Below are positions 7,416 to 63,774 of a stretch of DNA of 64,000 bases, piece after piece; the first letter of the stretch is position 1, and each line of letters starts with the position of its first letter. Source of the stretch: Polyporus tsugae (lineage: Eukaryota; Basidiomycota; Agaricomycetes; Polyporales; Polyporaceae); NCBI GenBank assembly GCA_024305745.1, contig JAHRBS010000003.1, positions 2,356,001 to 2,420,000 of the forward strand, read 5' to 3'. The notes beneath the pieces are model-generated. The model did not search any database and was not told the DNA's origin. It saw nothing but the letters and a program-made list of their open reading frames with translations. The position numbers and the translations under genes are program-made.

Positions 7416-7461
7416 TGCTATGGGTTGAATAATTCGTTTCCGAACTGTTCTGCCCATAGCA
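7416..7461 (-). repeat. Imperfect hairpin H1
   Basis: 46 bp. Arms TGCTATGGGCAGAACAGTTC and its near-complement, loop of ~4 nt. The distal arm repeats the relic C-terminal codons at 7531-7558 (22 of 24 aligned bases). Belongs to relic E. Confidence 0.85.
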
Positions 7462-7483
7462 TATTGTTACTGTCCGAGAAGTT

Positions 7484-7573
7484 CTACGCAACGGGGCCGT
7501 GACCATAGTAGATCGCAGGCCACTGGCCGTCAATATGGGTTAGATAATTCGTTTCCGCCATCGTCTTCGAGGA
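7484..7573 (-). pseudogene. Relic E: C-terminal codons of an A-type family member
   Basis: An open stretch reads SSKTMAETNYLTHIDGQ...YYGHGPVA and then TAG at 7484. It matches the A1 and A2 C-termini (ASKTMAESSSLTHID; SSKMVETSHSTHID). The rest of the gene is missing, so only the 3' end and hairpin H1 remain. Confidence 0.75.
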
Positions 7574-8000
7574 AGAGAGGTTGGCTTACATATGGAGCGT
7601 CGTGGTAGGAGTCTCGCCGAGAGTGAGGGCTCGCAGACTCCTTTACCGTGTCCTGGTTTGGCGACCAGTCCCGTTGTAAGTTACTTTTGAGTTGGAGAGC
7701 GATGGTCAGGCTGGTATGCGCAAAGAAGGGAGACCATGAGCGTACTAGAGGCCGCAACCAGGTTCCGAGTCGCCGAGGTCAAGCGTAGTATGATGTAAGC
7801 CCTTGTATGTAACACGAGTCCGGCACGCGCTAGAATCCCTACCATCAGATCTGCCATCTCTCAATCTGCAGCGTCTTCAACGGCGACCGTCGTTCTGGCT
7901 TCCACACATCGAGTCTTCTGGGCTATATCTCTTGTCTTCTTGGCTGTCAATTCTTGCGTCTTGCAGTGGCTTGTAGAGAGACTTCACCATGCGGTGAACG

Positions 8001-8046
8001 TGCTATGGGTCAAACTGCTTGACTCCAAACAGTTCGGCCCATAGCA
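8001..8046 (-). repeat. Imperfect hairpin H2 (A1 locus)
   Basis: 46 bp, TGCTATGGG ... CCCATAGCA. The distal arm shares about 20 of 22 bases with the A1 coding end at 8291-8315 (read on minus: GGAGTC-AG-AGTTTGACCCATA). Confidence 0.85.
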
Positions 8047-8243: not shown

Positions 8244-10454
8244 CTACACTGGGGCATGGTAACTGTAGCAAATCTCAAAGCATCCGCTATCAATATGGGT
8301 CAAACTACTCGACTCCGCCATCGTCTTCGAGGCGGGGATAGTGGAGGTGTCGGGCTGGGCGTCGTAGGTATACTGACGCGGAGCATACGCACTCGGAGAC
8401 CAGAGGTGAGTGCTCATACCTGGCTGAGCGTGGTTCATGGTGAGGTCCTGTGCGTACGTCTGAGCGGGGAGAAGTGGGACTGCAGACCCAGCGCTGAAAC
8501 CGCCGCTGGACCAGTGCGCGTAGAAGCCAGTGTCGGCCGAGGGTGGAGGAACAATGTACCACGGACTTGTAGCAAGGTTCTCCATACTCGATGGCGCGCA
8601 CTCATCCATCAACGTATGGGCAGGATAATGAAGGGCCTGCGACAGCTCGGAGTATGAGCTCGGCGGATATGCGTCGCACGTTGACGGTGGTGCGGCAGGC
8701 TGGTACTGGACTGGGACATCCTGGTTGTAAGCGTACGTGTCGTCCACCATCCTCTCAATATCGTATGATCGCTGACGATCGATATACGGGGCGACGGCAG
8801 ACGGCGCTGACCAGACGACGCAATGCCCGCCCGGAGGCGGGGTCGTCGCCTGCGCCATCTCCTGCACGACTTGAGGGTCTTGCTCCCCGGTGCCATGACA
8901 CGCGATCACGCCGAAGCGGTTGTCGATCATCGTCGGAGGATGGGCCTGAGGTACGTATCCACCATCCACCTGCGTCGTGTTGCGATAGTACTCTACCAGC
9001 TCTGGGGCCAATGCTGGCACGATGTTCGACAAAGGACTGCTCGGGAGATGGCGATCAGCTGGGGAGAAGCCCTGGTAGGCGGCGCTGACGTAGTCGGTGC
9101 CTCCTACGGAATTATGCGCGGCCGTCAGGCCAGGATTGGGCTGGGGCGCTGTGTGATGGAGCGGCGGCGTTGCATCCCAACCTGGGTTCTCCGCCCAAGT
9201 GCCCGGCGGCGACGGCGACGGGCCCGTCCAAGGGCTTTCAAAGCCGGCCTCCAAATACAACGGTGCGGCAGGCCGCACGTTGGTGTACGCGTTGTCTGCC
9301 ACGTACGTCGGCTCTGAGCCCGAGCTCGGCATGTGGGTAGTGGTGTACGAGCCCTGCGATGCGACATGACTGTGGGAGTAGCGCACGCCCGCGGAGTACC
9401 GCCCGAGCTCATCGCTGGGGCCGTGCAACAGATGGTAGGTGCCAGGGCCGGTGTACCCAGGTGCTGTCAAAGCGTTGTGATCGGGGGTCAGCGAATTGGA
9501 GAAGATGGTACTGGCTTGGTCGGCCACCTGGCGGGTGTAGGCCATTGAAGGCGCGTACGAGTTGCTAGGCATCGTATACTTGGCGATTAAGCCCTCGCGT
9601 GCGGGCAACACGGCGGTCCCAGAGTGGACCGTAGTCGCATCGAAGAGGGCAGACGGAGGCGTGTCGCCCAAAGTCTCTTCCTCAGAGCCCGGGCCGAGGG
9701 TCGTCGTGTATGCGTCTTGCGAAGTGTCAGAGTACGACACCCACACGGTGTGCTCTTGAGGCGCATCGATGGGAGCGTGCAGGGGATGGTAAGAGTAATC
9801 GGGGATGGAGGAGGTTGGTCCTGGGGGGAGGTGTGGGTCCAACGCCGTCTGCGGTGCCAGGTTGGGAGGGGCGGAGTGAGCTTGAGCCACGGCCTGGGGA
9901 GGAGACGTCGAGGACGTGCGCCCGTCGCTATGCATCGCCCATTGTGTGGTTGGAGGCTCAGGTGCGGGCGACACAGTGACCGGAGCATAGACGGCGGGGG
10001 CGTCGGGTTGGACAATGGGCGGGTCGCCACCGGATAACAGACGTGGACGCTATTGTGATGTCGTCCCGACCGTGTTAGTGGGATTCTGCAGGCAACAAGA
10101 ATGCGATTCACCTTCTTCCTACTCTCCCTCTTTTTCTTCAACACAGCTCCCTTTGCCTCTGCCACCTTCCGCTCCCTCTCGCGCTCTTTCCGACGCTGGT
10201 AATTCTGCCTCGTCTTTTCTGAGAGTGGTTCAGATTGCACGCCCCACGGCTGCCCGTATATAGGACAATGTTCCATTGTCTGCCAAACGGCGTCATATAT
10301 ATATGGTTGTCCAAATCTAAGGATGCATGCTCACCTTCTGGTCGTCGCCGACTAATTCGGCGAATGCCAAGTGAGGTTTATTCTTCTGGCGGAAGTCGCG
10401 GAGGGCCGCATCCGGGTCGCCGTACATGGGCTTCCGGGGGTTGTCGTCCGCCAT
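8244..10454 (-). CDS. Family member A1: basic N-terminus plus long disordered tail, unknown function
   Basis: Exons 10454-10335, 10279-10112, 10049-8244; introns 55 and 62 bp; 697 residues. Exon 1 (40 aa) has ALRDFRQKNKPHLAFAELVG; exon 2 (56 aa) has CPIYGQPW, SEPLSEKTRQNYQRRKER and a Lys/Arg-rich end; exon 3 is a Pro/Ser/Thr/Tyr-rich tail. Near the end are blocks shared across the family: WSAPSAVAPYIDRQRSYDIE and SSYSELSQALHYPAHTLMDE. The exon 1-2 pattern (FRQ-H-P ... YGQ-W ... LSxxxxxxYxxRKxRE) faintly recalls an HMG box; this is a guess, and no DNA-binding domain is proven. The frame matches A2 throughout with indels in multiples of three, so it is kept as protein. The C-terminal codons form the half-site matched by hairpin H2. 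Confidence 0.75.
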
Positions 10455-13210: not shown

Positions 13211-16200
13211 CTAGATGAGAGATGGCTGCTGTTGCGGTTGCTGCTGCTTCGAGGGATCGCTCATCCCATTCATCCCACCCAACCCGCCGAACCCATTGCC
13301 CAGGCCAAACGACCCCGAGCCAAACGCCGGGGGCACCCCAGTCGGGCTTGCGCCGAAGCCACCGCCAAGGTTAAACGGCGAAGTTGACGATGCACTTGTA
13401 GCGCTGCCGAAGGGCGTCGTGGTCGTGGTCGCTGAGCTCAAGAACGATGGTGTTGGGCCGAACCCAGCACCAGCGCCGGTGCCCGGGTCCGTCGAGAACA
13501 TCGAAGCGCGGAAGGGGTTCGCCCCGCCAAGCATCCCAGTCGCCTGCGGTCGGAGCCCACCCACAAGCCCTGTCGGCTGAGATCCCAGCCCCGGGAAGCT
13601 CGTTGACTGTGGAGCGATCGCCGAGCCGGGGTTCGACGCGGGTGGCGAGCCCACAGGCGTCGACGGCTGCGAGGGAATGGGCGGCAGCGACTCGAGGAGC
13701 GCAGCACCGAACGACGACGACGGCTTGAACGCCTTGATACCCCCAAAGCCCGTTTGCTGCCGCTGCAGCGGTGCACCCGCCCCCCCGGCGGACGATATCG
13801 AGATGGACGGCGCGCCGGTGGAACTCGTCAGCGCGGTCGCACCCGTCGGCTGCGACGAAAGCGAGGAGAAGAGCGAGTCGGAGAACGTCGAGCCGGTGGT
13901 CGTGCTTGATGTCGGCTGCGACGCGAGCGACGAAAAGCTTCCCAAACTCGGGTTCTGCGTCGTCCCGCTCGGCTTGGAAGAATTGAACGCAAACGATGTT
14001 GCCACGCTAGCCATGATCGAGGACCCGTTCGCGTTCGCGCCGTTCGCAGGCGGGCTTGATGTCCCGTTCTGTTGATGCGTTGCGAGAGACGGTCCGAACC
14101 CTCCGAAGCTCGGGAATGCGCCCGTCTGCATTGGCTGCTGCTGCTGCTGCTGTGGCTGCTGTTGCTGAGCCTGGTTGTTGACGCCCATTGCGAGCTCCAT
14201 CAGGGTCGGCGGTTTAGGGACAGGAGGCGGGGTGGTCACGGGTTGCCCGAATGGGTTGCGGGAGCCTGTCTGATGCGTCTTGACAGGCTGTGCTGGTGGG
14301 GGGGACGCTGAGGGTCCGGGACCGGTCAGCGGCGCGGTCGCGGAACGTGGAGGGACGGATTGAGCGGGCACGCCGCTCGATGCAGACTGGGCGAACGGTT
14401 GGGCAAACGTAGGGCCGGCAGACGCAGGCGGTTGGGAAGGGTTTGCGAAGGAGTTGCTGAAGGGGAATAGAGGCTGGGCGGTGGGTTGCGGCTGAATCGC
14501 TGTCGGCGGCTGTGATGGCTGAGGGTAGAACGGACTGGAGGTCTGCATGGGGTTCTGCGGTGACGAGGAAGACTGTTGGGGGAAGGGGTTCGTGGCCTGT
14601 AGGGCACCGGCGTTCTGTCCACCAAACGCCATACCTGTCGTCTGGGGGAAGAGAGTGCTCTGACGAAACGGGTTTGCACCCGTCATCTGGGGTTGCAAGA
14701 AGCCCGTCTGTTGGGGCGCAAGGAAGGGTTGAAATTGCTGTTGTGGCTGTTGCTGAGGCTGAGGCTGGGGCTGCAGACCAAACGGATTCGTTCCACCCAT
14801 GGGCATCGCAGTCTGTTGTGGCATAAGGAAGCCGGTAGGCTGTAACTGCACCTGTGGTTGGCCAAACGCTTGAGCGCCAAGCATGGCACCAGTCATCATC
14901 TGCTGCTGGTAGAACGGGTTCTGCTCCGCCTGATTCTGGAAATAAGACGTTGTTGGACTGGTGAAGTATTAGCGTGTGTAAGGCATGGACATTGTACACC
15001 TGACTCACCTGTTCGTTTGAGGGTTGAACATCGTATGTTGTTCCGTCTCGATGGCACTGAAAAAGTCCATCATGGCCTTTTGCCCCTGCGTCTTCGGCGC
15101 TGAGTCGGGCGATTTTGACGAACTTGCCTCGGCCGGGTTCGGTGACGGGGCTGCGAGGGTGCAGCGTGAGTACGGAAAAGAGGTCTGCTATGCTGATAGG
15201 CGCACGCTTCTCAGCAGGCTTCGGCGAGGGCTTGATGCCGAGTTTAGCATTCCGCTCAGCCGCTTCCTTCTGGGTCTTGTACTCGATCCTATTCTGCTCG
15301 AAGTTCGGGTCGTTCAGATACTCCTCCAACGAGCTCGCAAGGCTGACAGGAGCCTATGTAGGGAAACAAAGTCAGTTTGTTGAGTGCGCGAGATCAAGAA
15401 GCAGAAAGGGAACGTACATGTCGTAGATTCGGTACTGGTAAGTTGAGGAGATTCTGTAACTTCTTCGCGACACCGAGATACTCGACCACACGCTCCGTCT
15501 GTTTGCAGAAGTGTTTATAGATGGCAAGCGCTTCCTTTGCGTCAATCTGGGACATCTCGAAATAATGTTCGAGAACATTGATGACACCCTCGTTGCACGC
15601 CTGGAATATGATCAAAAGATCCTTCACCAGCATTCTTAGCGCGGTGATATTGAGCTCGTCCTCGAGGTCATCCAGGTAAAACTGAACACGGTAGTGGGGA
15701 ATATGGACAGAGGTCACAAACAATTACCTAGTCAGGAATTAAGTCAAACGACGGGGAACATGACAACGTACCCGGCATTCAACCAGGGAGTCCACCATCT
15801 TCTGCACAATCTTGGTCTCTCGCAACAGACCCTTCTCGACCGTCATGATGCGAAGTTTCCGACCGGCTATAGTCTTGCTTCGTTGGATACCTCCGGATGA
15901 AGGCTGGGGCGCGCTGTTCTTGCCGCGCTTGTTGCGACTGCTTCGGCTCTCCTCCTGCTCGTCGTCGATCGCAGCCGAGTTGCGCATGTCGCGATTGGTT
16001 TCGGACTGGACGCGTATGGCATCGTGCTTGAGCTCGCGGTATGCGCGTATGCGGGCGTCAAGATACTTTGAGTAGTTCTGCAGGTTCTGGGGTGCCTGGT
16101 AGCCTGGAGCTCCGTGGTGAGATCATGAGCCTCAGAAGGGGATGTCAGGGGGGTTTCACCTTCCCACTGGCCAGAGGATACGTTGCGCAGCTTGAGAACG

Positions 16201-23504: not shown

Positions 23505-23582
23505 GGCGCTATAGTGTAGTGGTTATCACTTGGGATTCTGATGAGTGTTCCCAAGACCCAGGTTCGATCCCTGGTAGCGCCT
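23505..23582 (+). tRNA. tRNA-Gln(CUG) with a 6-nt intron
   Basis: Acceptor stem GGCGCTA/TAGCGCC with discriminator T582; D-arm GTG/CAC; anticodon stem TGGGA/TCCCA; anticodon CTG at 23538-23540; T-arm CCAGG-TTCGATC-CCTGG. Between A37 (23541) and T38 (23548) sits TGAGTG, a 6-nt intron at the canonical position. A-box TAGTGTAGTGG and B-box GGTTCGATCCC are intact. The body closely resembles fungal tRNA-Gln. An AT-rich TATATATA stretch lies 15-25 bp upstream. Confidence 0.9.
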
Positions 23583-24059: not shown

Positions 24060-24092
24060 TATTGACGGTGCTCGTGACGCTTCGCCGGTCGT

Positions 24093-24114
24093 GGGCGTCT
24101 CGATTACTCGTTAT
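24093..24114. repeat. Shared motif M1 (right block alpha)
   Basis: GGGCGTCTCGATTACTCGTT on plus; the reverse complement matches 7,246-7,267. Confidence 0.7.
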
Positions 24115-28510: not shown

Positions 28511-30701
28511 ATGGCGGCCAACGATCCCCGGAAGCCTGTGTACGGTGACCCGGATGTGGCCCTCCGCGACTTCCGCCAGAAGCACAAACCTCACTTGGCA
28601 TTCGCCGAATTAGTCGGCGACGACCAGAAGGTGAGCATGCATCTTTACATGGGTACAACCATATGTATGACGCCGTTTGGCAGACAATGGAATATTGTCC
28701 TATATATGGGCAGCAGTGGAACGTGAAGTCTGAGCCACTCCCGGAAAAAACACTACAGAATTACCGGCGTCGGAAGGAGCGCGAGAAGGAGCGAAAGGAG
28801 GCAGCGGCAAAGGGTGTTGGGAAGAAGAAGAAAACTAAGAAAGTAAGTTGCATTTTGGATACTTGCGGAAGCCCACTGACAAGGCCTGGACGACGTCGCA
28901 ATAGCGTTCATCATCCAGTGGCGACCCTCCGATGTTCCAACCCGACGTCGCCGCTGTTTATGCTCCGGACACTACGTTCCCCGCCCTCGAGCCCCCAACC
29001 ACGGAATCGACTATGCCTAGCGATGGGCGCATGCCGTCGGCATCTCCTCCCCAGACCGTAGCTCAAGCCCACTCCGCCCCTCCCAACTTGGCACCGCAGA
29101 CGGCGTTGGACCCACACCTCCCTTCGGGGCCGACCTCCTCCATCCCCGATTACTCTTACCATCCTATGCACGCTCCCATCGATGCGCCTCAGGAGCACAT
29201 CATGTGGGTGTCGTACTCTGACACCTCGCAAGTCGCATACACGACGACCCTCGGCCCGGGCTCTGGGGAAGAGACTTTGGGCGACACGCCTCCGTCTGCC
29301 CTCTTCGATGCGACCACGGTCCACTCTGGGACCGCCGTGTTGCCCGCATGCGAGGGCTCAATCGCCGAGTATACGATGCCAAGTAACTCATACGCGCCTT
29401 CAGCATACACCCGCTGGGTGGCCGACCAAGCCAGTACCACCTTCTCCAATTCGCTGCCGCCCGATCACAACCCTCTGGCAGCACCTGGGTACACCTTCCC
29501 TGGCCTCTACCATCCGTCGCATGGCCCCAGCGATGAGCTCGGGCAGTACGCCGCGGGCATACCCTACTCCCATATTCACGTCGCATCGCAGGGCTCGTAC
29601 ACCACCACCCACATGTGGAGCTCTGACCCAGACTCGACGTATGCGGTGGACGACCCTTACACCGCACAGCCCCCCGTACCGGCGTATTCGGAGGCAGGCG
29701 GTGAAAGCTCATGGATGGGCTCGTCGCCGTCGCCACCGGCGACAAGTTGGGCGGAGAGCCCAGGTTGGGATGCGACGCCGCCACTCCCTCACACCGCGCC
29801 CCAGCCCAATCCTGGCCTGACGGCCGCGCATAATTCCGTAGGAGGCACCGACTACGTCAGTGCTGCCTACCAGGGCCTCTCCCCAGCTGATCGCCATCTC
29901 CCGGGCAGTCCTTTGTCAAACATCATACCAGCATTGACCCCAGAGCTGGTAGAGTACTATCTCAACACGACGCAGGTGAATGGTGGATACGTCTCTCAGG
30001 CCCATCCTCCGACGATGATCGACAACCGCTTCGGCGTGATCGCGTGTCAAGGCACCGGGGAACAAGACCCTCAAGTCGTGCAGGAGATGGCACAGGCGAC
30101 GCCCTCGCCTCAGGGCGGGCATTGCGTCGTCTGGTCAGCGCCGTCTGCCGTCGCCCCGAATATTGATAGTGAGCGATCATACGATATCGAGACGGCGGCG
30201 GACGACACGTACGCTTACAACCAGGACGTCCCAGTCCAGTACCAGCCTGCCGCACCACCGTCGACGCACGACGCATATCCGCCGAAGCAGAGCTCGTACT
30301 CCGAGCTGTCGCAGGCCCTCCATCACCCTGCCCATACGTTGATGGATGAGTGCGCGCCATGGAGCATGGATGACTTCGCTATAAGTCCGTGGTACATTGT
30401 TCCTCCAGAGGCCGACGCTGGCTTCTCCGCGCACTCGTCCAGCAGCGGTTTCTGCGCTGGTTCTGCGGCCCCGCTTCCCTCCGCTCCGACGTATGCACAG
30501 GGCGTCATCGTCAACCACACGCAGTCCGGGATGAGCACTCACATCTGGTCTCAGAGTCAGTATGCTGTACCCGAGTACCCATACAACACCCATCTCCCCA
30601 CATCCACCGTATCTTCTTCGAAGATGGTGGAAACAAGTCATTCGACCCATATTGATAACCAGCACTCCGCGATTCGCTATGGTCACGGTGCCACAGCGTA
30701 G
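28511..30701 (+). CDS. Family member A2: basic N-terminus plus long disordered tail, unknown function
   Basis: Exons 28511-28630, 28684-28842, 28905-30701; introns 53 and 62 bp; 691 residues. Exon 1 has ALRDFRQKHKPHLAFAELVG; exon 2 has CPIYGQQWNVKSEPLPEKTL and ends in a Lys run. The tail carries the shared blocks WSAPSAVAPNIDSERSYDIE and SSYSELSQALHHPAHTLMDE. Compared with A1 the changes are scattered, with in-frame indels only, so both copies look maintained. The codons for SSKMVETSHSTHID (30,615-30,656) contain the half-site repeated in hairpin H3. It reads toward TLP3. Confidence 0.75.
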
Positions 30702-30882: not shown

Positions 30883-30928
30883 TGCTATGGGCAGAGCGAT
30901 TTGGAAACAAATCATTCGACCCATAGCA
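30883..30928 (+). repeat. Imperfect hairpin H3 (A2 locus)
   Basis: 46 bp. The distal arm shares 22 of 23 bases with A2 codons at 30,629-30,652 (TGGAAACAA-TCATTCGACCCATA), 182 bp after the A2 stop. Confidence 0.87.
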
Positions 30929-48073: not shown

Positions 48074-49038
48074 GGCTGGAGGCTTGGCAAAGGAGTGTGG
48101 CCAGGTTGCTGAAGGCGGAGGACGACACGGGGGCCTGCATGGATGGATGGTCGCCTTGGATCTTATATAGGCTACCCCATCCAAGGATCCTAGGGCGATG
48201 AACAGGCTTCCGTGTTGTCGTCGGCAACATTGACAGACTGCAACATGCTATTGCCAAGTGGGCAGATGGGGCCCAGGATTCTCCATCTAACTCCACCATT
48301 TCGTGAGCTTCCATACCCGTCTGTCAAGAGACGAACTGATGACGTTTGTTCGAGGAGATTAGGAACCTTTAAAGCTCGGATCTTGTATGATGAACTCAAT
48401 CAAGCTGGGAACGCAGTCTACTTGAAACACATTCAAGACTCGATCCGTGGTTCAAGGGCTGCGATGTGAAAATCCCCGTTTTACGGATAAAAACGCAATG
48501 GCTGTGTAGAATGCGACTAGCAGTGGTGTCAGTGGCTATCATATGGAACGGTTCTGTCCTGTTCTGTCTCCCGAACTTTAGAACATACCTCCGAAATCAT
48601 GACTTCCACACGGCTGCGCAATGCTCGTACCTGTATCTTCTGCCTGGAAGTAGCAACGGATGATCACGAACCCTCGTCCTCAACTGCTCGTGAACGGTGT
48701 GACATCCAGGCCGCACGGTCAGTGGCCCCCAGCCGCCGCGTAGGACCCGTGGGAGCCACCGTAAGGAGTAAGAGAGACGCCCAAGCAGAAACGTGGCCAC
48801 AACTGCCTGGAAGATTGATCGATGCTCGCTTTCAGTGTCACCATCGTCGCTCTTCACTGGCTTGTCACTGGCTCTCATGAGCTCTCCTGATATTTCTGGG
48901 CTATTCAGACATTAAACTTGCAATTCTATGGCTTGCTGGAACATACGGTTTCCCGACGACGGCTCCACAGCACAGATCTTCCCAGCAACCCTCGCTTGCA
49001 CGGATTTATCACAGCCGTAAGGCTCACCCGGAATGGTT
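48074..49038. other. Spacer between protease and the tandem array
   Basis: 48.07-48.7 kb is unique and holds no gene; the tandem-duplicated sequence begins near motif M1 at 48,761. Confidence 0.5.
48761..48820. repeat. Shared motif M1 (B1 locus)
   Basis: GGAGTAAGAGAGACGCCCAA then AACGTGGCCACAA; ~220 bp beyond H4 on the gene's 3' side. Confidence 0.7.
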
Positions 49039-49086
49039 TGCTATGGGTGATATAGTCTGAGATATCAAACTATATTGCCCATAGCA
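49039..49086 (-). repeat. Imperfect hairpin H4 (B1 locus)
   Basis: 48 bp, with two central mismatches after the GGG/CCC pairs. The distal arm GACTATATCACCCATA is identical to the sequence at the B1 stop codon (49,350-49,365). Confidence 0.87.
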
Positions 49087-49363
49087 GTTCATTCATGCTC
49101 GACACCCCAGACCCAGAAGCTACCACTGGCACCCAGCGCGATTGCTAGTATTCATTGGACGCAGGAAGCCGAGACCTTTACATTGGGTTAATGGAGCGGA
49201 GGACACAGGTGAGTATATACAAGCAGCGTATCTATGGGAGATATGGAACAGAAAAAGACATTTGTGGTCCTGCGTGAGGTGTACATCTCGCCTAATCTGC
49301 ATGGCTGCAGTTCGATGAGTGTATACCAGCGGTAAACACAGGGGGTTGGTATGGGTGATATAG

Positions 49364-51516
49364 TCAAAGACAGACTTCTTGCCACGTCGAAGTGGCCAGA
49401 AGCTGCTGGTTGGCATCGCGTGCCTGCTCCGTCGCGAAGTCCATGTCGAGGAGTAGCGACGAGATTTTAGACAACAAGCGCTCGTTTTCATCGAAACATT
49501 CCTGGATGATGCGAACGCAAAGTTCGTCTTCGCTAATAGTGATGTCCTCTGGATGTGACGGAGCGAGGGGGACTGGGCCCGAGGCGTCGATGCCCAAAGC
49601 GCCGCTAAAGAGAGACGCGTAAAAGGCGGTGCCGGGCACTGCAGAGACCATGGTATGGGGAGTTATCGCCATTTCGTCCATGGTTGACGGTGCGGAATCG
49701 TCGGCGAAATCGTGGGGATGGTACTGCAGGGCCTGCGCCAGTTCCGAGTACGAGCTCTGCGGAGTGGGCAGAGACGGGGGCATGGTATAGGTCGCCTCCG
49801 TCGCTGCGGAAGGAGGTGGGACTTGCACGGCCTGCATATATGCGTATGCGTCGTTCATAGTGTTCTCGATGTGGTCCGATCGCTCACGATCGGCATGCGC
49901 GGTGACAGCGGGCGGGGCGGACCAGGCGATGGAGTCGCCCCCCTCAGGTCGAGCCGCATACGATGGGCCTGACTCGTGGGACATGTCGTGAGGATACCGC
50001 TCCGCGGTGACATCGATCGTACGCGTGTTGTCCAGGAACGTGGACGTCGTCGAGTAGGCTTGAGGTGCGGGTTTGCTATTCACCTGCTGCGGCGTGTCGG
50101 GGTAGTACTCGATAAGTCCCGGAGCGGGTGCGGGACTACCCGGGTCGCGACTGTCGAAGGAATGGTGGACAAGAAAGTCCTGATAGGTGGCGTTGAAGGA
50201 GTCTGTGCTCCTTCCGCTCTCCTGCGCGGTCGACAAGTCCGGACTGAACCCGGACGTGGTGTGGGCGGACAGTTGCAGCGCGTTCACTTCTGGGTTCTCA
50301 GACCAGACTGTCGGCGGTGGCGGCGACGAGCTCGTCGAGCGGCCCCAGTGGACCGTCTCCAGACCTGGTGTGGTTGTGTGAAAGTGTTTTGTGGAGTTGT
50401 CCGCCCCATAGCTCGCCTCCGGACGAGAGTTTAGCGCGCCAGGATTGGCATACGGGGACGGCGGTTGGGCACGGGCACAGGAATAGCGCATGTCATGCAT
50501 ACCCATGTGGTACTGGTCGAAGTCGGTGACGAACGCCGTAGAGGTATGATATGCGATGGGAGGGAAACCGATGAAGTTTTCGCATCCATGCCTGGGAGAG
50601 TTCCCTGCCATCCACGTTGCGTACTCATTGTAGGTCGGACGCGCAGTGTGGCCCTGATCTACAATCGCATCATATTGTGAAGAGTTGAGGCCGTCGGAGC
50701 GGGATGCGGCGGCGGCGGCGTAGACGTCTGTGCCAGGGCAGGGATACCCCCCTCCTGGCCCAGTTACGTGAGCGGGACAAGAGGGCTCGTTGTGGCGGCC
50801 GAGTCCAGGGGTCACAGACGTCGCGGGTACATGGTTGAGCGTTGGAGCGCCACTCGGGGCATCGGGGAGCGAGTACGGACCCGGGGTACGCTCACGAAGC
50901 AGCTGACCTTGTGTAAGAGGCGTATTCGCACTGGGAGTGGTGTTCTCTTGCGAGGAGGGAGAGCTTGTGATGCTGGGAGAAGGGACAGATTCAAGGACGA
51001 GCGGACTGGGAGGGGGAGATCCATGGAGAAGAGGAGGATGGAGATCAGATATCCCCTGCCAGTGGCCGGACGTATGCCCGGGTTCGTGACCATTGGAGGG
51101 TAGTGTCGAGGCTTCCCTGGCTTCGCCGACCTGTATAAGAGTAGGTAAGTAACTCACCGCTGTGCGTGTTATTGCGGCTTGGCTTACACTTCCCCCAGAG
51201 ACCCCCTCAAACTGAGCCTTCTTGTTCAGCTTTACCTTCCGCTTCAATGACTGCGTCACCCTCCACTTCCGCCTACGCTCGTTGTCCCGGTCATGTTTGA
51301 CCGTCCTTTGCGTCGGCTCTCCAAACAGTCCTTGTGTTCCGTAGTGGGTGACTGAGGTCGATAACTGTGTTGCAAATCAGTTATTGTATATGCTTTGTAG
51401 GACAAATGGAGTCTCACCACTTCCTCGGGCACGTCTCTGACAAGGATCGCGCTCACCGAGTGGCCTTGGATATTATGGCCGATGAGGGGCGTGTTCCCAG
51501 TGAACTGTCCGACCAT
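49364..51516 (-). CDS. Family member B1: basic N-terminus plus long disordered tail, unknown function
   Basis: Exons 51516-51418, 51364-51188, 51130-49364; introns 53 and 57 bp; 680 residues. Exon 1 MVGQFTGNTPLIGHNIQ ... VRDVPEEV; exon 2 has HYGTQGLFGEPT, HDRDNERRRKWR and LKRKVKLNKKAQFEG, aligned with the YGQ ... basic region of A and C. The 57-bp second intron is a multiple of three and lacks a stop, so retention would only add 19 residues. The tail has WSAPPAVTAHADRERSDHIE, SSYSELAQALQYHPHDFADD, a helical end RIIQECFDENERLLSKISSL, and the terminal LLATSTWQE. The half-site for H4 overlaps the stop codon. Confidence 0.75.
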
Positions 51517-53430: not shown

Positions 53431-54384
53431 TGCTTTACATTAGATGCCGCGCGCCGCTGAGAGGTCAGCCGGACTGACTGGCTGAAAGATGTGTGGGGCG
53501 CGATCAGTAGGAGAGTGCCAGAATGCACAAACAAGATGCTGACCCCCAGGACAGGACATCTGTCGCGATTGGGGAAGGATCCCGCGTTCCAATTGTGGTA
53601 GGAACTGCTGTAAATGGTGGGAGTCACGAAGGGGTTGCAAATCAAGCGATAATAACGTACGTCACGCGTCTCCAACGCAAGCTTCTGATCAACTTGTGGA
53701 CATAGATGCAGACGTCCAGTCTGCATACCGTGGCAAGGAATACGCAGCACGAGGATAGAAGGACTTACCACGCTGGTTTGATTGTACCCCTGGAGAATCG
53801 TATCGACGGTATCGTACGCCTAGCGGCTACCAGGCAGTGCCAGCAGTGCCAGCGAGCTCTTGCATACCACCGCGGCGACGTCACGGTTGGCACGGTGCTC
53901 GCTACAATGGCCACGGCAGCTGAGAAGCGGAACAGCGATGACAGAGACGAAATAAGCATAGACAGGTCCCTACTGGTCGTGGTTCGTTGACAACGACGGA
54001 CGTGCCATCAGCCGCCTTGACTTGAAGAAGTTGGCGTTCCGATCAGGCTCGGCGTCTCCCGGTACTGTCAGGGCTTACCATAACGAGTAAGCGAGACGCC
54101 CAGGCTCGAAACAAAGTTTTTGGCGATCGACTCCTGATCTGTGTTTCGAGAACTTCATGCTCCAGCCGCTCATCTAGGCTTTCCCTCTGCTTTTCTCATA
54201 CAAGCTACTTTTTGGCCTGCTCTTGCACGAAAATGCCAGTGACCAATGGATTCCAGTATGTGCGTCACTGGAAGTGGACACAGAGTCCGACTCGCAACCT
54301 GGCCTCAACGTCGGCACCCCAACAAAGACATTCCCGACATTCCTCGGCTGAATCACATCCCCCTCAATCCTGCTAAGAATGGTT
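53431..54384. other. Spacer between X1 and the C hairpin
   Basis: 53.43-53.7 kb is likely upstream X sequence. Motif M1 at 54,079-54,112. No other gene supported. Confidence 0.45.
54079..54112. repeat. Shared motif M1 (C locus)
   Basis: ATAACGAGTAAGCGAGACGC then CCAGG; identical over 20 nt to 63,379-63,398. Confidence 0.75.
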
Positions 54385-54432
54385 GGCTATGGGTAGCACA
54401 GTTTAGATCACTAAACTCTGCTGCCCATAGCA
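54385..54432 (-). repeat. Imperfect hairpin H5 (C locus)
   Basis: 48 bp. The distal arm AAACTGTGCTACCCATA matches the C coding end (54,687-54,705: GAACTGTGCTTACCCATA) with one substitution and a 1-nt indel. Confidence 0.83.
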
Positions 54433-54704
54433 GTTCATTCACGCAAAGCGCCTCCTCGTCACCCAGTAATTACGACTCAGGCCGATCGCTGTTGGACGGA
54501 GTGAACCGGGCATATAAATTGGGTTGAGACAGACAACGGGAGCAAAGGTGAGTACATTGCAAGCATATCTATAGGAGAAACAGAGAAGTGTCGGTATTTC
54601 GGTCTTGCCCGAGGTCCTCCTTCAGCTTGATCCCTCCATGGGTGCAATTTGCTGAGGGTGTACCCCGGGATGGAGATACGACTGTTGATATGGGTAAGCA
54701 CAGT

Positions 54705-56735
54705 TCAGATTGAAGCTTCTGCCCACGTCGAAGTGGGCCAGAGCTGCTGACTGGGTTCGCTGAGGAGTAGCGACACGATATCCAATGACAAGGGTTCGCT
54801 GTCACCGTCGAAGCATCCCTCGAAGATGCGCGCGTATTCGTCGTCCGTGGAGTCCACCTGAAAGGCGATGGGCCCAGGGACGTTCGTAGATGGATTTCTG
54901 ATCGCGCCACCTCCGATTTGGGGACTGGATGGAACTTGTGTGTGGTTGGTCTTTGGTGCAGCGATGGCCTGCGTGGCGGATGGAGTCCCGGCGTAGTGAT
55001 CAACGAGGGCGTGCGCGAGCTCACTATACGCACTGATGGCGAGGTCCGTTGACTGAACGCGTTGTTGCGCATTAGCCATGGTCGATGCGCCCGGAAAATG
55101 CTGGTTGGACGCATTGATACAGGAAGTGGAGGTCGTGTACGTGATCGGAGTCGAACCGACGTGGCCGGCGTTTGTATACGACATTGTCGAGACGTGGTGC
55201 CCGTTGTGCGGGGTATGAGCCTGCATGGCGGATACGTTATGCTGCCAGACTTGGTGCGATGCGGGGGCTACGATTGGCGGCGCGGCCACCTCACGAGCGT
55301 ATCTGGCAACAGCGGAGACCTCTACAGTCGCGGGAGACTGGTTGAGGCTGGAATGGCCCTCACTGGACCCATTGAAGCGGCTGGGATAAGGTCCCTGGGC
55401 ACGCTGATGGTTGAAGCCCGTGGATGTCGCGCGATCCACTCCAGGAGTACCAGTTGTACTCGTTGGGCCCTTACTGGCAGGCTCACGCCGCTGGTACCAC
55501 CAGTGGTGCCCCTCGTCCGTCGAGGTCCAGACGGTCGTCCCCGTTGAATCATGCATGGAGATCGGGAGAGCTTATGACCGTGGGAGGGGAATGGAGAGGA
55601 TGGAGGAGATCGGGCATGCTCGCCACAGCATTCCACTGGGACCCGTGAGCAGTGTGGGGGACGACGGGTGGGACGTTCGTGTTTTCCTCCCCTAGCGCCG
55701 GAATGGGCGATTCTTGACCGCCCGAGGAACGACGAATGAACGAACTGTAATAAACAGCATGAAAGCGGTCCCCGCGTGAACCACTTTGTGCTGCTGAGAG
55801 CTGGGCGGGCATGTAAGAGGACGGTTCTGGGCTCTCTGCCCATGGCCTCGGTGGCGGTGGCGGCGGCGACTGATACGTTGAAGGGCTGGCGCGATGTGAC
55901 TCCAGGGACCTCGTGGTTACGGGAGAATTTTTGGTACAAACGTTGTCCACCACGTATGCGCCATGGCTTAGCGTGAGGGCTGTAGTATGTAAAGCCGGGG
56001 GTGGAGCATGGAAGCCGGAGTACGCTGCGTTGTGGGTGTATTGCTCACAGACTTTCATCACGGTCGGTGGCGCTTGGTAGATGGGGTCGAGGACCGTGGA
56101 TGCTGGGATCGTAGAGGGGTGCGAGTCCAACGACCCCGGCGGCATCGAGTAGGAGATAGCGGGCCAGGGAAGAGATGGACCGCGCGCGCGCGCGTCGTGA
56201 CGCAACGCGTCCCGGGTGGTTGAGGGCTGGAGAACTGGCGGCGGAGGGGTCACGGAGAACACAGTCATGATTGGACCGGGGAGATCAGGTGGAAGCGTGC
56301 GATTCCCGGTCGAGCAGTGCTGTCGCAACATTCAGTATGTTGGCAGGATCCCGGGACCAACGAGCATGAAACGCACCTTCCTCTTTACCGTCTTCTTGCT
56401 CGGGCCCCTGGCCTGATTTTGCTTAGACCGAATGGCCTGCGCCTTGGCCTCTTTCTCGCGTGCTTTCCGACGCACGTAGTCGTCCTTCGATTCGGGTGAG
56501 AGAGGCTCGGCCTGATCCCCAAGGTTCTCCTGCCCGTATGAGGGACACAGCGCCATCAACTGCCAAACAGGTTCATACATGTCGAGAGCGAGAGACAAAC
56601 GTGTATGCTCACTTCCTCATCGTTCCCCACTGCTCTCTTGAGTGCAACGGGGGGCTGATGTTTCTGCCGGAACTCCTTGAGACGGGCATCCTTCTCGCCG
56701 TACTTCTTTGCCTTTCGAGACTGCGTGACTGCCAT
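54705..56735 (-). pseudogene. Family member C, frame broken once in exon 3
   Basis: Exons 56735-56613 (41 aa, ARLKEFRQKHQPPVALKRAV), 56559-56377 (61 aa, LMALCPSYGQ, EPLSPESKDDYVRRKARE, Lys/Arg-rich end), then exon 3 from 56319; introns 53 and 57 bp. Exon 3 stays open to TGA at 55549 (... SSPDLHA); the family reading resumes one base shifted (MHDSTGTTVWTSTDEG from 55556) and continues to 54705 with SAYSELAHALVDHY, YARIFEGCFDGDSE and LWPTSTWAEASI. A stop in the second frame near 55,570 confines the lesion to ~55,549-55,570. No good intron spans it, so this is a single frameshift: either a recent pseudogene, a sequencing slip or two separate proteins. Confidence 0.7.
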
Positions 56736-57018: not shown

Positions 57019-57057
57019 GGTGTCACGGTGCTTCCCGGATATGGACTCCGCAGACAC
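57019..57057 (-). promoter_or_regulatory. Conserved upstream element of C
   Basis: GGTGTCACGGTGCTTCCCGG ... ACTCCGCAGACAC, as at A1 and A2; 284-322 bp before the C start codon. Confidence 0.45.
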
Positions 57058-58059: not shown

Positions 58060-58120
58060 GAAAGGAGTAAGCGAGACGCTCAAGCGGAAACGTGGCCACA
58101 ACTTCCTGAAAGATTGATCG
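58060..58120. repeat. Shared motif M1 (B2 locus)
   Basis: AAGGAGTAAGCGAGACGCTC then AACGTGGCCACAA, ~230 bp beyond H6. Confidence 0.7.
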
Positions 58121-58352: not shown

Positions 58353-58400
58353 TGTTATGGGTGACATAGTTTGAAGGATTAAACTATATTGCCCATAGCA
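58353..58400 (-). repeat. Imperfect hairpin H6 (B2 locus)
   Basis: 48 bp. The distal arm AACTATGTCACCCATA matches AACTATGACACCCATA at the B2 3' end (58,634-58,649). Both differ from H4/B1 (ACTATATCACCCATA) at the same place. Confidence 0.85.
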
Positions 58401-58691
58401 GGTCATTCATGATCGACACCTCGAGATCTAGAAGCAATCATTAACACCAGGAAACCGAGACTTTTACATTGAGTCAATGGAGCGGGAGACAGAGGTGAGT
58501 ATATATACAGGCACCGTATTTATGAGAAATGGAATAGCACGAGTCATTTGTGATCCTGCCCGAGGTATACATCTAGTCTGATCTGCATGGATGCAGTTCG
58601 CTGGGGTATACCTAACAGTGAACACAGGGGGTTGGTATGGGTGTCATAGTTAAAAGGGAGGTTCTTGCCACGTCGGAGTGGCCAGAAGCTA

Positions 58692-60814
58692 CTAGTTGGC
58701 GTCGCGTGCCTGTCCCGTCGCGACTTCCGCCCTCAGGCTGAGGAGCAGCAATGAGATTTTCGACAGCAAGCGCTCGTTTGCGTCGAAGCATTCCTGGATG
58801 ATGCGCGCGCATTCGTCTTCGGTGATAGCGACGTTTTGTGGGGATGATGGAGCGAGGGGAACCTGGCCCGGGGCGTCGATGCTCCAACCATTATGAGAGG
58901 TGTTCGCGTGGAGAGCCGTGTCAGACTTTGCAGAGACCGTGGTTCGCGGAGTTGTTGCAAAACTGTACGTGCTGGACGGGGCGTCGTCATCGGTGAAAGC
59001 GCGGGGGGCGTACTGCAAGGCCTGCATGAGCTCCGAGTACGAGCTCTGCCGAGTAGGCGGGGACAGGTGCATGTCGCAGGTTGCAGACGGCGGCACGACG
59101 GGATGCTGGACTTCAACATCATGAGCATAGGTGTTGGTGTTTGCGGCTCTCTCGATGTCCCCCGATCGCTCATGGTCGATATGCGCGACGACCGCAGGCG
59201 GGGCGGACCAGATGATGGACTCGCCGTCCTGAGGCTCGGCCGCATACACTGCGTCTGAGGCTTGGGACACGTCACGAGGATACCACTCCGCGGTGCCGTG
59301 TGGCGTGGTTGTATTGGCGGTGTTGTCTATGAACGCGGACGCAGTCGTGTAAGCTTGAGGCGCGGGTCCGCCATCCGCCTGCTGCTGCGTGTCGGCGTGG
59401 TACCCGCTCACTACCGGCGCCAGTGGTTGGCTGGCCGACTCGAAACTGTCGAGGAAATGATGGACAAAAAAGTCCTGATAGGTAGCGTTGAAGGAATCTG
59501 CGTTCCTTCCGCTGTCCTGCACGGTCGACAAGTCCGGACCGAACCCAGACGTTGTGTGGGCGGACAGTTGCAGCGCGTTCACCTCTGGGCTCTCAGACCA
59601 GAACGTCGGCGGTTGCTGCGACGAGCCCGTCGAGGGGCTCCCGTGGTCTGTCTCCAGACCCGGTGTGGTTGCGGGAAAGTGTGCGGTATAGTTGTCCGCC
59701 ACATACGTCGCCTCTGGGCGAGGGTTCTGCGCGATGGTAGCCTGAGTGGCATACGAGGACGGCGGTTGGACATGGCCACCAGAGTAGTGCGCGCTTCCGG
59801 CATGCTGCTCATGCGTACCCAAGCGGTACTGGTCGAAGTCGGCGACGAGCGCCGTAGAGGTGCGATATGCGATGGGAGGGAAACCGACAAAGTTTTCCCA
59901 TCCATTCCTGGGAGAGTTCCCTGCCGTCCACGTTGCGTATTCGTTGTAGGTCGGACGCATGTGGCCCTGATCTATAGGCCCGTCGTACTGCGAAGAGTTG
60001 GGGCCGTCGGTGCGGGGTGCGGCGGCGTAGACAAGGCAGGGATACCCCCCTCCTGGCCCAGTTACATGAGCGGGACAAGAGCGGTCAGTGTGGCGGCCGA
60101 GTCCAGGGGTCGCAGACGTCGCGGGTACATGGTTGAGCGTTGGAGCGCCACTCGGGGCATCGGGGAACGAGTACGGACCCGGGGTACGCTCACGAAGCAG
60201 CTGACCTTGTGTAAGAGGCGTATTCGCACTGGGAGTGATGCTCTCTTGCGAAGAAGGAGAGCTTGCGATGCTGGGAGAAGGGACAGATCCAAGGGGGAGC
60301 GGACTGGGAGGGGGAGATCCATGGAGAAGAGGAGGATGGGGATCAGATGTGTCCTGCCAGTGGCCGGACGTATGCCCGGGTTCGTGACCATTGGAGGCTA
60401 ATGTCGGGGCTTCCCTGGCTTCGCCGACCTGCATCAGAGTAGGTAAGTAACTCACCACTGTGCGTGTTATTGCGGCTTGGCTTACACTTCCCCCAGAGAC
60501 CCCCTCAAACTGAGCCTTCTTGTTCAGCTTTGCCTTCCGCTTCAATGACTGCGTCGCCCTCCACTTCCGCCTACGCTCGTTGTCCCGGTCATGTTTGACC
60601 GTCCTTTGCGTTGGCTCTCCAAACAGTCCTTGTGTTCCGTAGTGGGTGACTGAGGTCGATAACTGTGTTGCAAATCAGTTATTGTATATGCTTTGTAGGA
60701 CAAATGGAGTCTCACCACTTCCTCGGGCACGTCTCTGACAAGGATCGCGCTCACCGAGTGGCCTTGGATATTATGGCCGATGAGGGGCGTGTTCCCAGTG
60801 AACTGCCCGACCAT
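58692..60814 (-). CDS. Family member B2: as B1, truncated by two adjacent stop codons
   Basis: Exons 60814-60716, 60662-60486, 60428-58692; introns 53 and 57 bp; 670 residues. Exons 1-2 are nearly identical to B1. The tail carries WSAPPAVVAHIDHERSGDIE, SSYSELMQALQYAPRAFTDD and ARIIQECFDANERLLSKISL. After GQARDAN two TAG codons (58,694-58,689) stand where B1 has CAG CAG; the sequence beyond still reads LLATPTWQEPPF and then TAA. So B2 lacks the last ~14 residues, including the conserved TWQE end, through two C-to-T changes. The rest of the frame is intact. Confidence 0.72.
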
Positions 60815-62086
60815 TGTGGAATGAGGTGTGGGGCGAGGGGGATGATAAAGACAGTGCACGGATGGAGTAAGAGTCGAAGTGTGGATGCCTTGGCTGGCGA
60901 CGTACTCGACCTCGATGTATATATCGAACACAGGGCTAGGCTGCAAACGGCGACAGGTTCAGAAGAAGCTGAACATTGGACCCTGGAACACGTGCATCAC
61001 TGACCACGCCGGGACGTCGGGTGGCGTGGCGATGTTCCAGAGAAGAAGCGGAAGCGGATCTCGCGGAGGAGTAAAGATTTTTGTGTAACCAAAGGTGTGG
61101 ATCCAGATGCCCCAGCCTGAGATCGGAACCCAAACACCGGGCATACTAGGGGAGAAATATTCCCCACATGCCATATGCTCTCAGATAGCTTGCGAGTCAC
61201 TGCGTGTCACCACGGCGGGCGAAGCTCAATATGTACGTCCTCCGAGTCCAAGGCCCGCCGTGCAGGTCATGCCTCGAGGACACAGCTAGGCGGTACTGCT
61301 AGGTGGAGTGGTTGGGACCTTCCGAACCGTCGAGGGCGTAGAGCGTGCTTCTCGCCAAGTGTGGAAGGACGCTCCTGCTGCGGGGGCGCGCAAGTGCCAT
61401 CGTTGAGCGCAACCGACAGCACGGACCAATCACGCTGTGCCAACCCCAATACGAACACCCAGATGTGCAGCACCTCGAGACCTTATTCCCAGTACGGCCG
61501 TTTGCTATGCGTGAGAACGTGTTATTAGATCTTGCTTTATCCCAACACGTTGCGAGGTCACGGTTCAAGTTGCGGCGATGTGAGATCTGTATTGAGTGAG
61601 TCTGATGTAGTAGCGGGTCGAATCCTCTCCGAATCCACGTACCCCCTCGGCCCCTATCATGTCTGTCGATAGGCCAGGTTAATTGTTGGCCCAAAGCTTC
61701 GCAACCCAAGGACAGCGGGCATGTCGATGGTGGTGGTATTAGGCGCGGCGGACGAACAATAACGCCTGCTAAAAGTGGGCAGCTTTCTGGCTCCGCAGCC
61801 CGGGCTGCAACTTACAGCGAATATGGTATTTATCCCACTGAACGGGACTTTGTTGCGTCGGCGATCAGCATTGGCAGATAATCCGCGAGATTGAACCGGC
61901 CGGGAGCCCTAGCGATCCTTCAGCTGTGGCGCGATCCGATGCGTTGGCAGTCGTCTTTACAGATAGCCGAGACACAGCATCGTTTTCGCTACAAATATCA
62001 GTACAACTATATCACATATAGCTTTAAACGTCTAGCTAAACAGGCGCAATAGTCAGCATAAGTCACTCGGATGTTCTCGCCCTTAA
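60815..62086. other. B2 5' flank (duplicate of the B1 flank)
   Basis: Nearly identical to 51.5-52.48 kb up to ~61.79 kb, then more diverged. No gene supported. Confidence 0.5.
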
Positions 62087-62810
62087 CTATTCAAGCACCA
62101 CTCGACTGAGTCCGGGGCCCACAATCATGCCTGACACCTTGCCCGGATGCCGCGTATACCGCCGTTCCATCTGGTCCAGATATTCGTGCGAGAACGCGCT
62201 TTCCGCGTTCAGAGATATATTCACACAGCTCTTGTCCTCGTACGGCGCCCCCGCTCTGACTCTACGACCGAGGGCGAAACCGAGTGTTTGCATTTTCCCC
62301 GGAGCGGGAATCGCTCTGCCCGCTGCGCAAGAAGTACGAGCCGGTCGGCGCCTCCCATGAACTTCGCCTCGAGAGCAGGGACATCGCGGATCCCGGTCGT
62401 GGCGTAGAGCTTGGACCTGGCGGGACGTGCGAGTTCGAACTGAGATGCTCTATGAGAATGTAGTGCGTCAGCCCCTTTGCTCCTGCTCGCGCCACCGTAC
62501 TCACCTTCATACCTATGCCCGATGTCCAAGACGACATCGACAAGATCGATACCCCGAGCACGCTCTCCGAATGCGAGTGCTGCGACGCCTGCTCCACGCG
62601 GAACTTGATCCTACCGTCGCCCACAACAGCGACAGAGCGGAGTTCGAGGTGCGGAAGCTCGAGGCCGAGGCCGACAGCAGGATCCTCGGCTTGCGTCTGC
62701 AGCACCTCCTTACGCGCGCTCACCCCGAAGTCGACGAGTTGCTTCAGCGCCTCGTGGTTGTATACTGCGCGCTGCTGGATGGTTCGTCCGATCGTGCTTG
62801 CATGGACCAA
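62087..62810 (-). pseudogene. X2: unrecognised gene, probably decaying
   Basis: Paralogue of X1. The upstream frame (from 62,810) includes NHEALKQLVDFGVSARKEVL, SVAVVGDGRIKFRVEQASQH and SESVLGVSIL; the downstream frame (62,293-62,087) reads FALGRRVRAG ... AFSHEYLDQMERRYTRHPGK and stops at 62,087. The two frames are not joined by an obvious intron. Protein family not recognised. Confidence 0.4.
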
Positions 62811-63726
62811 CGTCTGGAAAGGGGTGGCGAGGTTCAGGCGGAATGGTGTCGTGGGTGGTGACGAGGCCCGACGGGGTGCGTCTGAGTTAAATGTCGTTCA
62901 TGAGTGACTAGATTTGTAGGGACCGCGATGTGTACGAGACTGACTCGGAGGAGATATAGACTCCACTGAGAGTCCGCCTATCTGTCTTGGAGAAGGATAT
63001 CGCATTCCAATTGTAGCGAGCACTGCTGTGAATGGTCAGAGTCAGGAAGGTGTTTCAATCAAGCGATATCATCTTCATAGCATCCCCGTTCTCGACTCAC
63101 GGATATATAGGCGTCCATTCTGGAGGCGACGACGCCGGTCTGCAGTACATATCCGCGTCATCATGTTTTGCATACTCTGTCAAGGAAACATCTCTGGCAC
63201 TGCAAGCGTGCACAAGTTCTCGACTTGCGGGCATAGAGGTCTCCGTCCGTTCTGCAGGTGACGACGTCAATATGGAGAACAAAACTGGCAACCAGTGAAA
63301 AGTAGAGATGAGGACCAGAGATGAAACAACAAAGAGGGCCGCGTCGGCTGGCGTTCTCGGCGTCTCCCGGCATCACCATAACGAGTAAGCGAGACGCCCA
63401 GAACCAAAACGTGGCCACAAATATGTACTATCGATGGACTCGTCTGTAGAATCCTACAGCTTCCTGCTCCCACAGCTTCAGCTCATCGATGTTCACTGGC
63501 TTGTCACACGCTTTCAATACCTCACTGGGATTATCTGGGACAATTAACTCCTCAACCCGCTCCTAACACGAGCATCGGTGACGATGACAAGATCCTGCGC
63601 ACACGCTGGCTACTACTAGTACTGGACAACCATATGCTGACTAGAACACTGCAGGCTGGCAACCTGCTCGTCTTATCTACCTGGCGCGCCTGACTGGAGG
63701 CAACCATATTCACACTCAGATTGGGT
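62811..63726. other. Spacer between X2 and hairpin H7
   Basis: Includes X-related upstream sequence (~62.98-63.1 kb) and motif M1 at 63,377-63,420. No gene supported. Confidence 0.45.
63377..63420. repeat. Shared motif M1 (right-edge C-like locus)
   Basis: ATAACGAGTAAGCGAGACGC, then CCAGAACC and AACGTGGCCACAA. Confidence 0.75.
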
Positions 63727-63774
63727 TGCTATGGGTAATGCATTTCGAATTGTCGAACTGCGTTGCCCATAGCG
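63727..63774 (-). repeat. Imperfect hairpin H7 (right-edge C-like locus)
   Basis: 48 bp, CGCTATGGG ... CCCATAGCA on minus. Its gene lies beyond the right edge. Confidence 0.85.

Follow-up and report, generated by a model that had tools for sequence, protein, structure and literature searches.

The Gene Array and Its Hairpins

The DNA considered here is a window of 64,000 nucleotides (nt) of the fungus Polyporus tsugae (contig JAHRBS010000003.1; C17:2356001-2420000 of a genome of 43.2 Mb in 18 contigs), which contains members of a family of paralogous genes, each followed shortly beyond its end by a hairpin that has one arm matching a segment at the end of the same gene. We refer to that segment as the half-site and to each locus by the window coordinate at which its hairpin begins. 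The array of these genes covers ~105 kb and extends past the window end to window coordinate ~113000; the genes up to ~77 kb point in one direction and those from ~90 kb in the opposite one, with gene A3 (Table 1) as the exception. Collectively, the array has 16 gene ends (15 genes and one gene-tail fragment) with a half-site and a hairpin. There is also a dispersed, decayed copy on contig C16, in which a stop interrupts the frame although the match between half-site and hairpin is retained.

The two gene models that were built (697 and 699 amino acids) open with 1-2 short N-terminal exons that contain a basic stretch, and then have one long exon. In protein searches that limited scoring to the ~8000 candidates with most words in common, the closest proteins came from Ganoderma leucocontextum and are hypothetical ones, with an identity of 71% to B1 (P0003) and of 77% to A2 (P0005). 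A Pfam scan of ten frames gave no match for the family frames among them, including the long exon of A2, and the homologs P0003-P0005 gave none above the cut-off, the BH3 domain being matched at E 0.008 and 16.4 bits where 25 are required.

All seven hairpins and six half-sites listed in a preliminary description of this DNA are present, and the departures from the shared hairpin form are small (54385 starts with GGC, 58353 starts with TGT and 63727 terminates in GCG). The exact form, TGCTATGGG-N-CCCATAGCA, is found in four of the seven window hairpins and has five matches in 43.2 Mb, all inside the array. A genome-wide motif search, which that description had called for, leaves only 1-2 matches outside the array or its flank when looser patterns are used: CTATGGG-N(20-50)-CCCATAG has 13 genome matches, 12 of them in or adjoining the array (control pattern, 1), and GCTATGG-N(20-50)-CCATAGC has 15, with 13 in or adjoining the array (control pattern, 4). 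From start to start, half-site and hairpin are separated by 115-349 nt.

A de novo scan for hairpins accompanied by a third copy of an arm detected 15 loci in 154 kb, 14 belonging to the family, and two loci in 70 kb elsewhere (the C16 family copy and one GC-rich locus), with none in three Markov controls. The third copy listed for 7416 and for 8001 is the arm of the other, and the scan missed 54385 and 112637, which have 1-nt indels. The remaining locus of the 15, at 1354, was rejected as a family member since it is of low complexity and without a family gene end; it is an inverted repeat of the TATGGGTTATGAGGG type (1354-1410 and 1690-1760), with a further copy ~350 nt off. When a covariance model was built from 11 hairpins, its matches in the array and the flank to the left of it comprised seven further hairpins, and 60 kb of background yielded none. 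In an Rfam scan of the window the hairpins match no described RNA family; the scan returned one transfer RNA (tRNA) gene and nothing else.

Correspondence between Hairpin Arm and Gene End

One arm of each hairpin has its own half-site as the unique best of 15 at 15/15 loci, and 0/100,000 permutations reach the observed sum, a result that holds within the 12 loci outside the A subgroup as well. Higher identity within a locus than between loci is what the preliminary description had predicted, and it is borne out at every locus compared. The 15-locus counts (permutation, arm-target departures, fold energy and sister comparisons) do not include locus 92644 and the C16 copy, which came to light afterwards and were checked singly. 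When two arms were searched genome-wide with up to three mismatches, each matched the hairpin and the half-site of its own locus together with one arm of a paralogous hairpin, and the controls returned 0 and 2 matches.

Position by position, the number of loci at which arm and half-site agree (of 13; 54385 and 112637 were omitted from this profile and from the duplex test below, and gapped by hand in the wobble, loop and sister counts) is 0 at position 3, 10-13 at positions 4-19, 5 at 20-21, 10-12 at 22-24, 8 at 25, 6 at 26, 3 at 27 and 1-2 at 28-31. The matched stretch is thus ~22 nt long, its first letter is U, and identity is near chance from position 27; to the left of position 3, outside positions 0-2 and -2, it amounts to 2-6/13. 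Loop letters fit the target in 39/61 cases, as compared with 23/120 in the next 8 nt. Since the match extends into the loop, the 3' end of a guide would fall there, which suggests either cutting within the loop or an Argonaute-sliced precursor.

The half-site is translated in the full genes A2 (LTHID) and A3 (STHID) and in the frame at 63727. Among the array genes outside the A subgroup (12 with 92644 omitted, their frames read by eye), seven have a TGA within the half-site that closes the family-type frame (49039, 54385, 67805, 74744, 104312, 108214 and 112637); of the other five, 58353 has a TAA there after earlier stops, 63727 reads through, and 71571, 96146 and 100337 stop before reaching it. 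The rest of the half-site beyond the frame end is untranslated but conserved, and the weakly matching positions 20-21 lie at or beside the stop codon. The half-site is thus old gene sequence, and the fresh inverted duplication that had been proposed for the birth of the hairpins is not needed. The hairpin may derive from its target, the half-site being gene sequence in the A genes, although no birth event is visible; the similarity beyond the mature sequence that marks MIRNA genes born by inverted duplication is absent, identity right of position 26 being 0-6/13.

Covariation

The duplex that the arm would form with messenger RNA (mRNA) could be aligned for 13/15 loci, and 90.1% of its cells are standard pairs, compared with 31-44% in slid registers. 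Double changes occur in 15/24 pairs, and the 57 double-change cells compare with 13.8 after shuffling, a count matched in 0/500 shuffles that leave the relatedness of the loci in place. A complementary target with conserved pairing, such as a microRNA-like RNA (milRNA) would have, is therefore found at these loci. At duplex column 11 all four Watson-Crick pairs occur and no locus is unpaired. The stem itself also covaries in the 11 hairpins aligned (three A hairpins, 71571, 92644, 96588 and the C16 copy are omitted): 90.6% of cells are paired and 13/30 pairs have double changes, again with 0/500 shuffles of the same kind reaching the observed value.

In nine comparisons between sister loci (positions 4-22, some loci being used repeatedly), 34 changes were concordant in arm and target, 8 affected the arm only and 11 the target only. 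The partner, or star, arm follows in 9/34 of the concordant changes, so that the constraint appears to act on the arm and its target first and on the stem second. Such a lag is what one would expect of a guide and its passenger, and a two-armed protein site would not show it. These observations suggest that base pairing matters at these loci, and they are stronger evidence than the strand asymmetry described below. They also bear on whether hairpins and matching gene ends might be inherited duplicates without present function. The members are indeed paralogs, and some copies have decayed (the 7416 tail fragment and the C16 copy with its stop); private matched changes at separate places, with 90% pairing over 13 loci, would nevertheless be so hard to obtain neutrally that we find such an origin scarcely credible.

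Strand Preference and Folding

When the 16 hairpins are read in the antisense direction, departures in 477 stem cells comprise 73 G:U and 17 A.C, the sense reading being the reverse by construction, and standard pairs number 420/477 antisense versus 364/477 sense; 96588, which is without a half-site, is included in these counts. Between arm and target, 18 departures are wobble-compatible and 4 are A.C. Neither set of departures is made up of independent events, because related loci share changes. Directional mutation of the deamination or RIP (repeat-induced point mutation) type was rejected as a source of the wobble departures, which consist of 10 G/A and 8 T/C, unlike a one-way change of C to T; that rejection is weakened by the fact that 8 of the 10 G/A departures are at position 21 and perhaps represent one inherited change.

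Fold energies were lower antisense in 14/15 hairpins taken with 8-nt flanks, by a mean of 6.7 kcal/mol, and in 13/15 when longer stretches were folded. The antisense z scores of the 15 hairpins range from -4.6 to -11.7, which indicates the stable stem-loop expected of a milRNA precursor.

A hairpin located in the gene's own sense 3' untranslated region (UTR), either cut by Dicer or acting as a switch with the half-site, would be in keeping with its position beyond the gene end and with the sense folds, which are good too (z scores from -5.2 to -9.0, below the antisense value in 6/15), and it has a precedent in Fgmil-2 of the Fusarium gene FgbioH1 (PMC6804420). However, the stem departures that are G:U antisense are A.C in the sense strand (73 versus 17), and the complementarity of the sense 5' arm to the half-site is poorer than that of the antisense arm (6.9/12 versus 9.9/12; unique best at 2/15 versus 15/15 loci). 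Pairing in the sense orientation is therefore not the conserved feature, and we consider a sense hairpin unlikely. The proximal arm of a sense transcript, put forward as the guide in the preliminary description, accordingly gives way to the distal arm, which when read from the other strand is near-perfectly complementary to the mRNA.

The strand favored by the G:U asymmetry might also produce a long antisense RNA that acts without RNA interference, its 3' arm pairing with either the 5' arm or the complement of the half-site; all three elements would then share one transcript. The 3' arm matches the complement of the half-site at 6.9/12 positions, however, being the unique best at 2/15 loci and best or tied at 9/15, and the matched stretch of ~22 nt includes loop letters, so that a switch of this kind is improbable.

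Strand asymmetry also counts against the other proposal of the preliminary description, a DNA palindrome for protein binding or recombination whose likeness to the gene end is kept by gene conversion. The inverted repeats, with their outer 9 bp conserved, and the duplication and inversion seen in the array are compatible with it. The arms of a palindrome would be equivalent and without strand preference; here one arm changes together with the half-site as the other lags, and stem departures differ between the strands (73 G:U, 17 A.C). Moreover, all four types of Watson-Crick pair at duplex column 11 are not in its favor. Gene conversion was rejected as a source of the match, because the mismatch at position 3 is fixed (13/13) and the match is lost after ~26, and conversion tracts would tend to erase both features. 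We therefore regard the palindrome as very improbable. Helitron termini or those of miniature inverted-repeat transposable elements (MITEs) were also dismissed on the ground that the hairpins accompany gene ends, a judgement from sequence for which no transposon search was made.

A Proposed Antisense Precursor

On the far side of the hairpins, homology between paralogs falls to background at ~300-350 nt in 5/9 comparisons; it continues to ~750 nt for 67805/108214, is weak throughout in two others, and is uninformative for 7416/8001 because the stretches overlap. Near that edge there is a conserved block, GAGTAATCGAGACGCCCA, and a search for GAGTAAGCGAGACGCCCA with up to two mismatches located 14 copies in the array and two elsewhere in the genome. 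In the antisense direction, 13 of the 14 array copies precede a hairpin by 164-344 nt; no such match was found upstream of 8001, 30883 or 92644. The block might be part of a convergent promoter. A copy at 24092-24109 (- strand) has no hairpin found beside it.

We propose that each family gene is paired with its own convergent non-coding unit. An antisense transcript would begin a few hundred bases past the gene end, near the block GAGTAAGCGAGACGCC, and would fold into a hairpin of ~30 bp with a loop of ~4 nt. Its 5' arm, a stretch of ~22 nt that runs from position 4 (UAUGGGU...) and reaches the loop, would be loaded into Argonaute and would then pair with the mRNA of the same gene near its 3' end, across the stop codon in many copies, causing silencing; after duplication, guide and target would change in step, so that each paralog would retain a private address. 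The genome has Piwi domain matches at seven places and matches to the Dicer dimerisation domain at three.

Of the explanations considered, it is probable that the hairpin is a microRNA-like precursor in antisense orientation, in which the 5' arm and the edge of the loop guide silencing of the hairpin's own gene and diverge together with their target. A microRNA-like precursor directed against its own gene had been one proposal of the preliminary description, and it gains support from the covariation, the matched stretch of ~22 nt and the G:U asymmetry. Antisense transcription, processing, the exact ends of the guide and silencing are steps that we infer from the DNA. In form and in their evolution the hairpins resemble microRNA-like switches and are putative members of the milRNA class, and each gene seems to carry a private off-switch.

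Several observations weigh against this reading, and some of them concern the strand, the choice of which is its weaker part. After related loci are collapsed, the stem asymmetry is reduced to 42 versus 13 by subgroup and 18 versus 10 by column, and that between arm and target to 13 versus 4 by subgroup (p 0.025) and 6 versus 4 by column; the direction appears consistent and its strength moderate. When shuffled sequences of equal composition serve as the reference, the sense z score is the more negative in 6/15 hairpins (7416, 8001, 30883, 49039, 96146 and 100337), and sense folding is better outright for 8001 with 8-nt flanks, for 8001 and 96146 in longer stretches and for the decayed C16 copy. 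A standard Dicer substrate would have a longer loop than the ~4 nt seen here, position 3 is unpaired in 13/13 loci, and the match lacks a sharp boundary on the left, with identity of 7-9/13 at positions 0-2 and 10/13 at position -2.

Other difficulties concern the pairing of hairpins with targets. The covariance model of 11 hairpins did not find the hairpins on C16 and at C17:2354029, and three hairpins, 96588, C17:2354029 and C17:2342181, are without a good half-site. For C17:2342181 there is a partial match of 11 nt to a half-site 458 nt off, equalled by 2/2000 random stretches. Hairpin 96588 (L028:2580-2643) is a second one at the gene at 94-96 kb, that of 96146, and has no half-site of its own; by reading of the aligned arms, its arm resembles that of 71571, the hairpin of a sister gene. 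The proteins of 71571 and 96146 are similar and their addresses are different. It is possible that 96588 is a retired address adjoining a new one. The presence of 96146 beside 96588 may also mean that a whole module of half-site and hairpin was swapped, which would account for some of the co-changes.

A broader proposal is tentative and, on balance, somewhat doubtful: that the tandem paralogs carry orthogonal antisense small-RNA addresses, co-diversifying after each duplication so that close copies share no switch, that the guide includes letters of the apical loop as in loop-spanning, Argonaute-sliced precursors, and that each address may be a private brake on, or an antidote to, the protein concerned.

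Other Features of the Region

Features of the array are listed in Table 1. Family-gene remnants include N-terminal ones at 44583-45112 and fragments at ~81.7-82.1 kb, and no hairpin was found at either place. At C17:2342173-2342245 (L032:6173-6245) a hairpin of the same covariance family lies behind a proline/serine-rich frame, where tblastn with the family proteins detected no family gene. Interspersed among the family members are frames for an aspartic protease (PF00026, 47043-48314) and a glycosyl hydrolase of family 47 (PF01532, 18451-19539), and two long open frames (13211-14899 and 41564-43297) without a Pfam family, for which tblastn of the 154-kb region returns only the frames themselves. 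The tRNA gene is at 23505-23582 (RF00005), its anticodon being unsettled by ARAGORN.

Table 1. Family genes, half-sites, hairpins and conserved blocks (window coordinates unless a contig is given)
Feature	Position	Strand	Remarks
Gene A2	8244..10454	-	Predicted 697 amino acids; exons 10454-10335, 10279-10112, 10049-8244
Gene A3	28511..30701	+	First exon from ~28511; large exon 28932-30701
Gene B1	49364..51516	-	Predicted 699 amino acids; exons 51516-51418, 51364-49364; edges by eye
Gene B2	54705..56702	-	Approximate extent; N-terminal exons within 56702-56407
Gene B3	58692..60814	-	Approximate extent; exon 1 starts at 60814 and the large exon runs to 58692
Half-site 1	7531..7554	-	In truncated copy of gene end
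Half-site A2	8291..8314	-	In the final coding exon; codes for part of ESSSLTHID
Half-site A3	30631..30654	+	Coding
Half-site B1	49347..49370	-	Overlaps TGA stop codon
Half-site B2	54686..54709	-	At TGA stop; 1-nt indel relative to arm
Half-site B3	58633..58656	-	~35 nt beyond stop of long frame; TAA where other copies have TGA
Half-site of 63727	64003-64026		Just past window edge
Hairpin 1	7416..7461	+	Antisense to gene-tail fragment on - strand
Hairpin 2	8001..8046	+	Antisense to A2; the single one of 15 folding better sense
Hairpin 3	30883..30928	-	Antisense to A3, the gene ending at 30701
Hairpin 4	49039..49086	+	Antisense to B1
Hairpin 5	54385..54432	+	Antisense to B2
Hairpin 6	58353..58400	+	Antisense to B3
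Hairpin 7	63727..63774	+	Half-site past window edge
Further array hairpins	67805, 71571, 74744, 92644, 96146, 96588, 100337, 104312, 108214, 112637		
Decayed half-site/hairpin set	C16:2019885/2020139		Outside array
Conserved block GAGTAATCGAGACGCCCA	7252..7269	+	Candidate promoter element, upstream of hairpin 1 in antisense direction
Conserved block	48766..48783	+	Upstream of hairpin 4, antisense direction
Conserved block	54085..54102	+	Upstream of hairpin 5, antisense direction
Conserved block	58065..58082	+	Upstream of hairpin 6, antisense direction
Conserved block	63383..63400	+	Upstream of hairpin 7, antisense direction

Relation to Known Small-RNA Systems

A literature text search with six arm words gave no match, and in the parts of the literature on self-targeting fungal hairpin arrays that were available to us no system was recognised as the one seen here. 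The nearest relatives in kind are the fungal milRNAs, as represented by milR-1 to milR-4 of Neurospora and those of Ganoderma sinense and Coprinopsis, with which the predicted RNAs share a short stem-loop, an expected 5' U, a length of ~22 nt and a genome with Dicer and Argonaute domains. The milRNAs of Ganoderma sinense are 18-25 nt long, with U as the commonest first letter (PMC4457147). What differs is that each hairpin here has as its predicted target the gene beside it on the other strand, an arrangement repeated ~17 times and accompanied by coevolution of guide and target. A re-analysis of fungal milRNAs published in eLife in 2022 reported strong targeting evidence at three tier 1/2 loci (PMC9757828).

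Fgmil-2 and FgbioH1 of Fusarium graminearum resemble the present case in that the milRNA hairpin is located shortly beyond the stop codon of the regulated gene, and differ from it in that the precursor is sense, is excised from the mRNA and concerns one gene (PMC6804420). The strand asymmetry of the Polyporus hairpins points antisense, and they have a separate target site and belong to an array of paralogs. Plant microRNAs that arise by inverted duplication act in trans on family members, whereas here every copy of the gene is linked to a hairpin of its own, which has been retained and has co-diversified as the genes were duplicated. The two systems are alike in having an arm related to the target family, as in the Allen model and miR163 (PMC3237417, PMC5388894). 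The Drosophila hairpin RNAs (hpRNAs) Nmy and Tmy, which act against Dox, are similarly tied to a fast-evolving gene family in a pursuit between driver and suppressor, and are of the small interfering RNA class, encoded at autosomal loci and directed at X-linked targets (PMC10292708). The hairpins described here are, by comparison, short, linked, antisense and present as one per gene.

The predicted guide, which reaches into the loop, can be compared with the loop-spanning animal precursor miR-451. In Neurospora, milR-2 represents a Dicer-independent class that requires the catalytic activity of QDE-2 (PMC3759863). Targets of fungal milRNAs have mostly been predicted singly, whereas the array offers ~17 paralogous pairs of guide and target in one gene family, and because these pairs carry compensatory changes, targeting can be read from their evolution. 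Rules of pairing might be measured from the array (position 3, positions 4-19, the weak positions 20-21 beside the stop codon and the loop letters), which is also a testable model for the way in which duplicated genes might gain separate RNA switches.

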